A stretch of 64,000 bases of DNA from Saprospiraceae bacterium (GTDB lineage: Bacteria > Bacteroidota > Bacteroidia > Chitinophagales > Saprospiraceae), in assembly GCA_028282725.1 (NCBI GenBank), contig JANQHF010000066.1, positions 1 through 64,000 of the forward strand, written 5' to 3'. The notes under the pieces are model-generated. The model did not search any database. It was not told the origin of the DNA and saw only the letters and a list, made by a program, of their open reading frames with translations. This document shows positions 27,714 through 32,332 of this stretch, in pieces. Numbering within the stretch: position 1 is the stretch's first letter; the number at the start of each line of letters is the position of its first letter. The position numbers and the translations under genes are program-made.

Positions 27714-27721
27714 TACCTTTG
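27714..27721 (+). promoter_or_regulatory. -7 box TACCTTTG upstream of candidate sphingolipid operon
   Basis: TAnnTTTG match 20 nt upstream of ATG 27742. Confidence 0.5.
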
Positions 27722-27741
27722 AACGTCTTTGATGTTCGGGA

Positions 27742-28263
27742 ATGAAATATGAACTAAAGAAAAAACGATACGTAGATCCCGGGTCTACCGGAAGGCCGGA
27801 ATGGTATCCCATTCCTCCCCAGGACAGCGATCTCCTGTTCTTTATCCAAAGAAATCAAAACCAGGATGCTATTGTCTACCGGGTAAATCGCACTCCGGAG
27901 GGCTTAATCAATGAGCATCTTCCTATGGACGCTTATTGGATCAGGTTTACAGAAGGTGGTGTTCGGACTGAGCTCAATGTCTTACAAAACAAATTGGCTT
28001 TTGGCTATGATTCCGATAAGATCAATAATGACCTGTACAGATTTCACTTTGTATCATACAAGGAAATCACATTTTATATACACAGAACCAATGATGAAAA
28101 CTTCAAAGTAATCTACCAAAGAGATGGAAGAAATGTGGTGTTGAAAAACATTTACGTCTACGCCGTGGAATTCGGTGTATTCCCAGATGTTAAGTATATA
28201 GAAATATTTGGAGAAGACCTGGATAGCGGATTGGCGGATTATCAAAAACTAACAGTTGAATAA
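27742..28263 (+). CDS. DUF4833-like protein
   Basis: LLFFIQRNQNQDAIVYRVNRTPEG...PMDAYWIRFTEGG; stop overlaps next gene. Confidence 0.6.
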   Translation: MKYELKKKRYVDPGSTGRPEWYPIPPQDSDLLFFIQRNQNQDAIVYRVNRTPEGLINEHLPMDAYWIRFTEGGVRTELNVLQNKLAFGYDSDKINNDLYRFHFVSYKEITFYIHRTNDENFKVIYQRDGRNVVLKNIYVYAVEFGVFPDVKYIEIFGEDLDSGLADYQKLTVE

Positions 28264-28940
28264 TGTCAGGAAAGAAATTATTTGTCTCTAACTCTACGGA
28301 GTCAATACGATTATTTGAAAGCGATTGGATGGAAGCTCTGTCCAAGGTTCACTTTTCCGTCCCCTTGATCATTTTTCTTCCGGTGATCGGATTCATGTTC
28401 TACCTTGGATTTTCAGGTACTTCTATGGGCATAGGTGCAGCTTTGGTGTGGATTGTTTTGGGATTTTTATCCTGGACCCTGACAGAATATATTATGCACA
28501 GGTTTGTCTTTCATTTTGAACCCAAATCTGAATGGGGACAGAAGCTCCATTTTATTTTTCACGGCATTCATCATGACTATCCGTGTGACCGGTTAAGATT
28601 GGTTTTGCCACCGTCAGTAAGCATACCGCTTGCCACCGGATTTTTCTTCTTATTCAGAAGTTTTATCCCCGCTCCCGGTCTTTTTGTATTCTTTGGATCC
28701 TTCCTGATCGGTTATTTGATATATGACATGTTCCATTATGCCATCCATCATCTTGAAGTGAAAGGAAAACTATGGAACATCCTGAAAACGCATCACCTGA
28801 AACATCACTATGTCGATCCTCATAAGGGTTATGGGGTAAGTAGTCCGGTCTGGGATTATATTGCACAAAGTCATTTTGAAGAGAGCAACAATCAACCAAA
28901 GGAAGAACTAAAAGAAGTAGAATCCCCGGTGGAAGCCTAG
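28263..28940 (+). CDS. Fatty acid 2-hydroxylase (FA2H/Scs7 catalytic domain; sterol desaturase superfamily)
   Basis: His boxes HRFVFH, HFIFHGIHHDYPCDRLRLVLPP, YDMFHYAIHH, KTHHLKHHYVDPHKGYGVSSPVWD, closely resembling eukaryotic FA2H; no cytochrome b5 domain. Confidence 0.9.
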   Translation: MSGKKLFVSNSTESIRLFESDWMEALSKVHFSVPLIIFLPVIGFMFYLGFSGTSMGIGAALVWIVLGFLSWTLTEYIMHRFVFHFEPKSEWGQKLHFIFHGIHHDYPCDRLRLVLPPSVSIPLATGFFFLFRSFIPAPGLFVFFGSFLIGYLIYDMFHYAIHHLEVKGKLWNILKTHHLKHHYVDPHKGYGVSSPVWDYIAQSHFEESNNQPKEELKEVESPVEA

Positions 28941-29009
28941 CCATGACACAATATCCTTATATTTACAACCGAATTCTTAATCAGCATTGTCTGTAAAAAG
29001 TAATCTGCT

Positions 29010-30221
29010 ATGCTTAGAGACCGTATGAAAGCCTACAATGTGCCGCAAAAGGTGCAAGAAATGGGCTTATATCCTTACTTCCGAACAATCGAATCCGAAC
29101 AGGATACGATCGTCAAAATCCAGGGTAAGGATGTCCTCATGTTCGGATCAAACAGTTATTTAGGACTAACCATCCATCCAAAACTTAAAGAAGCTTCCAA
29201 AAAGGCCATTGATAAATATGGTTCAGGATGTGCGGGTTCGCGATTTTTAAATGGAACACTTGATTTGCACCTCGAGCTGGAAGATCGCCTGGCGAAGTTT
29301 GTAGGAAAAGATGGAGCACTCGTATTCTCTACAGGGTTCCAGGTAAATTTAGGAGTGCTTTCTTCGGTTACCGGAAGGCACGACTACATTATCATCGATG
29401 AGTTAGATCATGCATGCATCATCGATGGTGCTCGCCTCTCTTTTTCCAAGGTCCTGAAATACAAGCATAATGACATGAAATCCTTGGAAAAGGTGTTGAA
29501 GCGCTGTGATGAGGATAAGGTAAAGCTCATCGTCGTGGACGGTGTCTTTAGTATGGAAGGAGACCTTGCGAAATTACCGGAGATCGTAAAATTAGCCGAG
29601 AAGTACAAGGCCAATATTATGGTAGATGATGCGCACGGTCTGGGCGTCATCGGCGAAAATGGAAGAGGTACAGCAGATCACTTTGGATTGACAGACAAGG
29701 TGGATCTGATCATGGGTACTTTTAGTAAATCTCTTGCCAGCATCGGCGGTTTCATAGCTTCCGACTTTGATACGATTAACTATCTGAAGCACAATGCGAG
29801 ATCATTGATCTTCAGTGCAAGTATTGCTCCTGCCAATGCCGCAAGTGTGATTGCAGCACTGGATCTTATGGAAGAAGAACCCGAACGCATTGAAAAGCTA
29901 TGGAAGAATACCCATTATGCCATGAAGCTTTTGAAGGAAGCCGGATTTGACACAGGTCATACGGAGACTCCCATCATACCCATATTTATCCGGGATGACT
30001 TCAAGACATTCAATATTACAAAAATGCTTCTTGAAGAAGGTGTATTTGTTAATCCTGTAGTTTCGCCGGCAGTAGCCAGTAGTTCTTCGCTTTTGAGATT
30101 TTCATTGATGGCAACTCATTCATTCGAACAAATCGAAGAAGCTATCGATAAAATATCCAAATGTGCCAAGAAATTAGGAGTCCTGGAAAGCATTGCCGCC
30201 AGGCAAATCTATGAAGGCTGA
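29010..30221 (+). CDS. spt: Serine palmitoyltransferase / alpha-oxoamine synthase family aminotransferase
   Basis: [58 protein letters not shown] (PLP Lys). Confidence 0.9.
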
Positions 30222-31344
30222 TATAATCCCGGTAGCTGGCAGTAATTCGCTGCTTAAGACTTACATTGATTTTCCTCACGAACTTTACAAAGACGATCCA
30301 CACTACGTCCCGGAACTATATCTTTCTCAGAAGCAAATGTTCAACCGGAGCAAGAATCCGTTTTTCGAACATTCAGAGGTTGAATCCTTTCTTGCCAAGA
30401 CAGAAGACGATATAGTCGGTAGAATTTCTGTAATTCTGAATAACAATTACAATGCCTATCACAATTGTCGGGTGGGCTTTTTCGGCTTCTTTGATGTCAT
30501 AAATGATTTTGAGATTGCACGATTACTCCTGGATAAGGCAGTTGAATGGTGCAAAGACAAAGACCTGGAGACGGTCTTGGGACCTGCGAACTTTAGTACC
30601 AATGATACGGCAGGATTACTGATCAAGGGATTTCATGAACCTCCTAAAATCATGATGACCTACAACAAACCCTATTACAGGGATTTACTTGAGCGGTATG
30701 GTTTTGTAAAGGATATGGATTTATATGCCTATTTACTCTATGCTGCAAAGGCCTCTGAAAAATCCATCCGTCTTGCCAGGACCCTGGAAGAGAGATTGGC
30801 ACGTCAAGGAATTGTATTCAGATCTATCTCTAAAAAGACCTTGTCTGAGGATGTCAATCAAGTGAGAGAGATCTATAATGATGCCTGGGCAAAAAATTGG
30901 GGCTTCGTCCCGATGACAGATAAGGAAGTCGAACACCTGGCAGATGAACTCAAGATGATCCTTCATCCGGACTGGTGCTTTATTGCCGAACATGATGGTG
31001 AGCCCGTGGGTTTCAGCATTACGCTCCATAACATCTTTGAAGTGACCAAGGGATTTAAGAAAGGTCGATTATTTCCATTTAATGTATTCAGGTTGCTCCG
31101 AGGCCGGCATAAGACCAAGTATGTCCGGATCATAACCCTGGGAGTCAAGAATAAATATCGGAAGAAGGGTATCGAGGCCATATTTTTTGCAAAGAACATC
31201 CTGGAAGCCCGTAATTCCGGAGTCATTGCCGGTGAAGTCTCCTGGGTCCTCGAGAATAACGAAGAAATGAATGCTTCTGCCTTGAAGTTGAATTCGGAGC
31301 TCTATAAAACCTATCGGATCTTCAGATACGATATCCATGGCTAA
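30211..31344 (+). CDS. GNAT-like acyltransferase, candidate bacterial ceramide synthase
   Basis: Start ATG overlaps spt stop; C-terminal GNAT-like region ([17 protein letters not shown]...[19 protein letters not shown]); adjacency to spt and SDR. Confidence 0.65.
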
Positions 31345-32332
31345 GGTCTTGATCACGGGATCAAATGGATTTCTGGGAAGCTGGCTTGCCAGAGAGGCAG
31401 CAGGAAGAGGGTTGGATACGTATGCCGCGGTCAGAAAATCTTCCGATTTAAGCTTACTTGAAAATGTACAGGTACATATTTGTACTATTGATTTTGAAGA
31501 CCTGGAGGGACTTGAAGCACTCATGTCGGAACATCGATTTGACTATATCATCCATTGTGCCGGAGTCACCAGGGTTCAAAAAGATGCTCTCTACTTTAAG
31601 GTCAATGCGGACTATTCGGTGTCGCTTGCAAAAGTTGCTCTTAAAGTGATCGGGAGTCAGTTGAAAAAATTCATGTTTATTTCAAGTGTTGAAGCCTATG
31701 GCAGTGCCGATGAGACCGAGAATGGCTACCTGGATAACAATGCTGAAGCGTCACCAAGGACGACATACGGAAGGAGCAAGCTGCGTGCCGAAAAAGAGCT
31801 TACAGCCATACCTTCTTTACCTCTTTTGATTCTCCGGCCTACGGCCATCTTCGGTCCGGGAGAAAAAGATTTGTTTGCGGTATGGAAAACGATCAAACAA
31901 TTCAGGTTTGCCCCGGTGATCGGGAATGCCCGAATCAAATATTCCTTTATCTATGTCAAGGATTTGGCGAGGGTGATTCTTGATGCAACCCTGTCCAATA
32001 TTACCCATAAATCTTATTTCGTCAGCGACGGAAAGGTATACCGGATCAAACAATTTACCGGGGCAATAGCCAGTTCACTGAATGTCAGAACATTTGGAAT
32101 GACCATCCCTTTTGTTCTTCTCGATGGTGTAGTTGCAATCAATAAGATGCTTGACAAGATTACAGGTAAAAAAAGTCTGCTCAACGATGAGCAATTGGCC
32201 AAAATGAAGGCCAGGAATTGGGATTGTGATATTTCAGATCTGGTGTCTGATTTCAATTTCATTCCCGCTTACACCCTGGAGAATGCGATCAACGAATCAA
32301 CGAGTTGGTACCGGGAAAAAGGATGGTTATGA
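31337..32332 (+). CDS. NAD(P)-dependent epimerase/dehydratase (extended SDR), candidate ceramide/3-ketosphinganine reductase
   Basis: VLITGSNGFLGSWLARE, YGRSKLRAEKEL catalytic YxxxK; overlaps upstream ORF. Confidence 0.8.
   Translation: MAKVLITGSNGFLGSWLAREAAGRGLDTYAAVRKSSDLSLLENVQVHICTIDFEDLEGLEALMSEHRFDYIIHCAGVTRVQKDALYFKVNADYSVSLAKVALKVIGSQLKKFMFISSVEAYGSADETENGYLDNNAEASPRTTYGRSKLRAEKELTAIPSLPLLILRPTAIFGPGEKDLFAVWKTIKQFRFAPVIGNARIKYSFIYVKDLARVILDATLSNITHKSYFVSDGKVYRIKQFTGAIASSLNVRTFGMTIPFVLLDGVVAINKMLDKITGKKSLLNDEQLAKMKARNWDCDISDLVSDFNFIPAYTLENAINESTSWYREKGWL

Follow-up and report, generated by a model that had tools for sequence, protein, structure and literature searches.

We analyzed a 64,000-nt window of the genome of a Saprospiraceae bacterium (GCA_028282725.1, contig JANQHF010000066.1, positions 1-64,000, forward strand) that carries predicted ceramide biosynthesis genes packed together with a fatty-acid hydroxylase gene. 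Five plus-strand open reading frames (ORFs), whose domain identities come from Pfam and NCBIfam profiles, follow one another at spacings of -1, +69, -11, and -8 bases: a DUF4833 protein (27742..28263; PF16117, 113 bits), a 225-aa FA2H/Scs7-type predicted fatty-acyl 2-hydroxylase (28263..28940; PF04116 FA_hydroxylase, 58 bits against a cut-off of 31), a serine palmitoyltransferase (SPT) of the Bacteroidota type (29010..30221), an N-acyltransferase of tandem GNAT fold that is a predicted bacterial ceramide synthase (bCerS-like; 30211..31344, with its ATG at 30211; weak match to PF00583), and an extended SDR of the NAD-dependent epimerase/dehydratase family, predicted to be a CerR-like ceramide/3-oxosphinganine reductase (31337..32332; PF01370 Epimerase, 112 bits). 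The initial annotation had described these five tightly packed genes and their overlaps; gene set and order stand as it gave them, but the first ORF starts at the ATG at 27742 and not at 27714. A sixth plus-strand gene, encoding a DUF5686 protein with a CarboxypepD_reg-like N-terminal domain and an outer-membrane-barrel-like character (25136..27700; PF18939/PF13715), ends 41 bases 5' of the DUF4833 ORF. Because this gene lies so close upstream on the same strand, the transcription unit probably begins with it, at 25136, and since the next gene 3' of the SDR, an HD phosphohydrolase, is 207 bases away, the likely unit is 25136-32332. The order DUF5686-DUF4833-hydroxylase-SPT-GNAT is kept in all five of the other same-genus genomes searched (61-87% protein identity), so the arrangement is not due to chance. 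The closest contigs in the named collection are Saprospiraceae or Bacteroidetes metagenome-assembled genomes (MAGs), and among these L109 proved identical, by contig number, length, and position, to the contig of one same-genus match. Between the SDR and HD genes, the minus strand holds a tiny membrane-peptide frame (32350-32465; MHDPYQSSLTTSEEKMGIMRVFILPAIVWSTLIALIYLIF).

The hydroxylase has a single sequence match among solved structures in the PDB, yeast Scs7 (4zr0; E 3.5e-27, 35% identity over 182 aligned residues), and an AlphaFold2 model (predicted local distance difference test score, pLDDT, 77) likewise retrieves only Scs7 at significance in a fold search, with a template-modeling (TM) score of 0.76 and a root-mean-square deviation of 2.9. 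Ten histidines (H79, 84, 100, 103, 104, 158, 162, 178, 181, and 182) align with all ten di-metal ligand histidines of Scs7 (H244, 249, 268, 271, 272, 326, 330, 345, 348, and 349), and all ten are invariant among 28 relatives of the window enzyme. In a tree the hydroxylase groups with Scs7 (support 0.92), away from eight sterol/carotenoid-type PF04116 paralogues of its own genome that were tested and that form a separate group (support 0.995), as the FA2H-type assignment of the initial annotation had anticipated. A sterol- or carotenoid-type hydroxylase identity was rejected on the same two grounds, tree and fold search. An N-terminal cytochrome b5 domain is typical of the eukaryotic FA2H/Scs7 subgroup and is not needed by the catalytic family; in keeping with the earlier description of an enzyme lacking it, none was found in the 225 residues, PF04116 is the sole Pfam domain detected, and the aligned part of Scs7 starts at residue 187. 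Sur2-type enzymes also belong to PF04116, and any ceramide hydroxylase would suit the operon context, so one could imagine that the enzyme acts on the sphingoid base instead, at C-4, to form phytosphingosine. Against this, the closest solved match is Scs7, and the HHxxPxDxxRLVxPP segment of Scs7 is conserved in the window enzyme, which makes a base hydroxylase quite unlikely. Family membership predicts instead that the enzyme 2-hydroxylates the ceramide acyl chain, the C-2 position in particular being an expectation from the family.

The neighboring genes provide the ceramide context. The SPT scores 716 bits against the NF047600 profile (cut-off 640), and its closest solved counterpart is the SPT of Sphingobacterium multivorum (3a2b; 539 bits, E 8.7e-161); an identity as cysteate acyltransferase, against which it scores 272 bits, was rejected on this difference. 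For the GNAT protein, a profile search against the PDB gave no useful match, and its AlphaFold2 model (pLDDT 87) shows a tandem GNAT fold that retrieves generic tandem GNATs only, so the acyl acceptor cannot be told from the fold. Among 198 Bacteroidota genomes sampled across the phylum, 146 have the GNAT and 147 the SPT, and 143 have both (Fisher 1.9e-37), with the two genes within 3 kb of each other in 77. Membership of the GNAT family is not diagnostic by itself, since such proteins are found on plasmids of many other taxa too. One such plasmid homologue, from Roseomonas (35% identity over 375 aa), is flanked on one side by LptF/LptG, from which a single hydroxylase gene separates it, and on the other by a MobA-like nucleoside triphosphate transferase; by locus number, Caulobacter cerS (CC_1154) lies between LptG2 (CC_1155) and a CofC-like gene (CC_1153) (PMC11324152). 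Since the Roseomonas homologue occupies the position of Caulobacter cerS, synteny indirectly supports the predicted role of the window GNAT as a bCerS-like ceramide synthase. The SDR gene directly follows the GNAT gene in most clusters, and its predicted CerR-like activity rests on SDR membership and this conserved position. Of the trio of Spt, GNAT, and SDR proposed by the initial annotation, the first two are supported by the SPT score and by the co-occurrence of GNAT and SPT.

Whether the hydroxylase belongs with these genes can be judged from its relatives. We surveyed the neighbors within 10 kb of its 80 best homologues in GTDB genomes and found SPT at 63 loci, GNAT at 60, SDR at 55, and DUF5686 at 65; genes for an inositol head group are nearly as frequent, with phosphatidylinositol-phosphate synthase (PIPS) at 62, an AUR1-like PAP2_3 protein at 61, and myo-inositol-phosphate synthase (MIPS) at 49. 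More than half of the SPT-linked loci (35 of 63) also have MIPS, PgpA, PIPS, and the AUR1-like inositol-phosphoceramide synthase. These 35 loci with all eight core genes span at least 11 named genera. Across the surveyed loci the commonest order, with small variations, is SPT-CerS-CerR-MIPS-PgpA-GtrA-DUF5686-PIPS-DUF4833-hydroxylase-AUR1. Carriers include Pedobacter, Mucilaginibacter, Chitinophaga, Niastella, Ferruginibacter, Chryseolinea, and Ohtaekwangia; Pedobacter kyungheensis KACC 16221 and Chitinophaga rupis are cultured examples that have the full cluster. Pfam confirms the cluster genes in a Pedobacter locus (L140) and in a Saprospiraceae MAG (L114); in the latter, twelve genes follow one another in a single run at spacings between -11 and +16 bases. 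PF04116 proteins are common, with about a dozen matches in the window's own genome, and several genomes have SPT without the hydroxylase, as would be expected if it were a bystander from an unrelated pathway next to an ordinary ceramide operon. Such a bystander is nonetheless very improbable: the genes overlap, the block is kept across the genus, and the linkage to SPT recurs in several orders and in differing gene arrangements. DUF5686 and DUF4833 also recur in sphingolipid clusters, and in Pedobacter L140 (8708-10000) DUF4833 forms the C-terminal part of a fusion with the CDP-alcohol (PI-phosphate) transferase; as a guess, the two families may have a part in handling the completed lipid or in its export. 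More remote FA2H homologues (32-39% identity, below about 190 bits) form separate clades in the relatives.

None of the inositol head-group genes of these clusters was found beside the window operon. They are encoded elsewhere in the same genome: contig C97 starts with a single run of PIPS, AUR1, PgpA, GtrA, and a lipid kinase, in which the AUR1-like product has matches among yeast-type AUR1 structures at E 2e-13, and MIPS, 69% identical to that of Pedobacter, is on contig C130. The "complete" ceramide operon of the initial annotation therefore holds for the ceramide part, but not for the head-group genes that accompany it in relatives. In the Saprospiraceae MAG L114, these same head-group genes keep their relative order but alternate with genes of the window type, from which we read the window locus as one half of a split cluster, whether the split occurred here or the halves were merged in relatives.

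Several observations weigh against joining the hydroxylase and head-group genes to the ceramide genes in one pathway. The 80 loci are non-independent, with 9 Mucilaginibacter and 9 Pedobacter loci among the 35 full ones. Co-occurrence in the phylum sample speaks in favor, SPT being present in 42 of 44 genomes with the hydroxylase clade, with Fisher p values (1.3e-4, and 3.4e-4 in the window's own class) that ignore shared ancestry; but outside the orders above linkage is weaker, SPT and hydroxylase lying within 20 kb in only 4 of the 42 genomes with both. The PIPS and AUR1 proteins of the window's own genome score below the NCBIfam equivalog cut-offs. Three family-level relatives (G007, G020, and G021) have an SPT operon without the hydroxylase, and in G007 AUR1 directly follows DUF4833, at the place expected for the hydroxylase; hydroxylation is therefore optional. 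Finally, the window's own genome encodes a cysteate-acyltransferase-like enzyme (best solved match cysteate-C-fatty acyltransferase, CFAT, 28eh, 476 bits), and the remote FA2H homologues (32-39% identity) occur in relatives' genomes with NF047600 matches in the CFAT-like score range, which may point to a link with 2-hydroxy sulfonolipids; in L103, the one case checked directly, a CFAT-like gene is 11 kb from an FA2H homologue. The hydroxylase could accordingly modify mainly the N-acyl chain of capnine-type sulfonolipids, or that of both lipid classes. At the window locus and among the nearest homologues, however, it sits with SPT, GNAT, and SDR and not with CFAT, the own-genome CFAT-like gene has acyl-AMP ligase, desaturase, and methyltransferase genes for neighbors (roles assigned by eye) and does not adjoin a PF04116 hydroxylase, and the CFAT identity in most relatives rests on score ranges, so we regard a mainly sulfonolipid-directed role as unlikely. 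With its apparent fatty-acyl-AMP ligase, desaturase, and SAM methyltransferase neighbors, this own-genome CFAT-like gene (G000:C39, L107:7315-8616) may mark a locus for sulfonolipids or other amino-lipids.

A role in ceramide modification remains our preferred reading, and the operon's enzyme very probably hydroxylates the ceramide fatty-acid chain. From gene content, homology, conserved histidines, fold, linkage, and co-occurrence, all of them observed, we infer with good but not full confidence that the operon makes 2-hydroxy-acyl dihydroceramide, which would feed inositol-phosphoceramide; the activities, the C-2 position, the order of steps, and the head group are the predicted part. In the proposed pathway, SPT would condense serine with an acyl thioester, and the GNAT would N-acylate and the SDR reduce the 3-oxo group, in either order, giving dihydroceramide. 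The FA2H/Scs7-type di-metal hydroxylase would then add a C-2 hydroxyl to the amide-linked fatty acid in an O2-dependent reaction; no candidate electron donor, neither a b5 domain nor a reductase for this purpose, was found among the operon genes. Products of the second locus (MIPS, PIPS, the PgpA phosphatase, and the AUR1-like transferase) probably add the inositol-phosphate head group, and the likely end product would be 2-hydroxy inositol-phosphoceramide, equivalent in bacteria to the yeast lipid that Scs7 modifies. On balance, we lean toward the broader view that one operon of free-living Bacteroidota encodes a complete yeast-like pathway, which starts at serine, ends with 2-hydroxylated inositol-phosphoceramide, and comprises SPT, CerS, CerR, MIPS, PIPS, PgpA, an AUR1-like synthase, and a hydroxylase of the Scs7/FA2H type, partnered by DUF5686 and DUF4833, and that in the window's genus this operon is split into two loci. 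Sequence-level findings that could have overturned the initial annotation were looked for and none appeared, leaving its interpretation supported overall.

2-Hydroxy sphingolipids and inositol-phosphoceramides are usually regarded as eukaryotic signatures, and an entire pathway like that of yeast inositol-phosphoceramide synthesis appears to be present at a single locus in bacteria, which bears on possible exchange of FA2H-, AUR1-, and MIPS-type steps between bacteria and eukaryotes. In the open-licence literature, we found no earlier description of ceramide genes, an FA2H-type hydroxylase, and the inositol cluster in one operon; myxobacterial FA2H-like 2-hydroxylases, DesA-type acyl hydroxylation in Caulobacter, and the Bacteroides inositol cluster are already known separately. 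In sphingolipid-producing Bacteroidota, spt, cerS, and cerR have been stated not to be clustered (PMC11334938), and the steps after SPT were called uncharacterized in 2022 (PMC9246714). The clusters described here offer named candidate genes for these steps and tie two uncharacterized families, DUF5686 and DUF4833, to sphingolipids. A single cluster that makes ceramide, hydroxylates it with an FA2H-type enzyme, and transfers the inositol head group would also be a compact test system for 2-hydroxylation in a bacterial membrane.

Among known systems, yeast Scs7, a relative of human FA2H, shares with the window enzyme its family, fold, ten metal-ligand histidines, and the RLVxPP and G-GV-S..WD segments; the window enzyme differs in being bacterial, in lacking the N-terminal cytochrome b5 domain, and in being encoded in a ceramide operon. 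In myxobacteria, which belong to another phylum, FA2H-like fatty acid 2-hydroxylases are tied to sphingolipid formation according to a secondary account (Ring 2009, cited in PMC10002949), and they are likened to the window enzyme by description only. Caulobacter has Spt, CerS (CC_1154), and CerR (CC_1164), and its ceramide acyl chain is hydroxylated by CC_0202 (PMC11324152), so that an N-acyltransferase, a dehydrogenase/reductase, and acyl-chain hydroxylation accompany Spt as at the window locus. The Caulobacter hydroxylase, however, is of the DesA family and unlinked, whereas that of the window is FA2H/Scs7-type and lies in the operon, and no dedicated acyl carrier protein or acyl-CoA synthetase is found among the window operon genes. 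As a separate observation, Roseomonas gilardii plasmid pRo-1 has a different PF04116 hydroxylase (L196:8201-8968; 22% identity) between LptF/LptG and the cerS-like GNAT of a Caulobacter-type sphingolipid locus; here a hydroxylase seems to have been paired with a bacterial ceramide synthase for a second time, independently. For Sphingobacterium multivorum (3a2b), the likeness is at the level of the SPT enzyme, the operon not being part of the comparison, and Sphingobacterium spiritivorum reportedly contains ceramide phosphoryl-myo-inositol (Naka 2003, cited in PMC9246714). In Bacteroides thetaiotaomicron, knock-outs identify BT_1522, BT_1523, BT_1525, and BT_1526 as inositol-lipid genes, and the GtrA gene BT_1524 is without a lipid phenotype (PMC9246714); BT_1526-BT_1522 (MIPS, PgpA, GtrA, PIPS, and AUR1-like) are the same kinds of genes as in the extended clusters and in the window's own genome. 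The B. thetaiotaomicron SPT (BT_0870) lies outside this cluster and no FA2H is described there, whereas the extended clusters join the inositol-lipid genes of B. thetaiotaomicron with ceramide genes and the hydroxylase.

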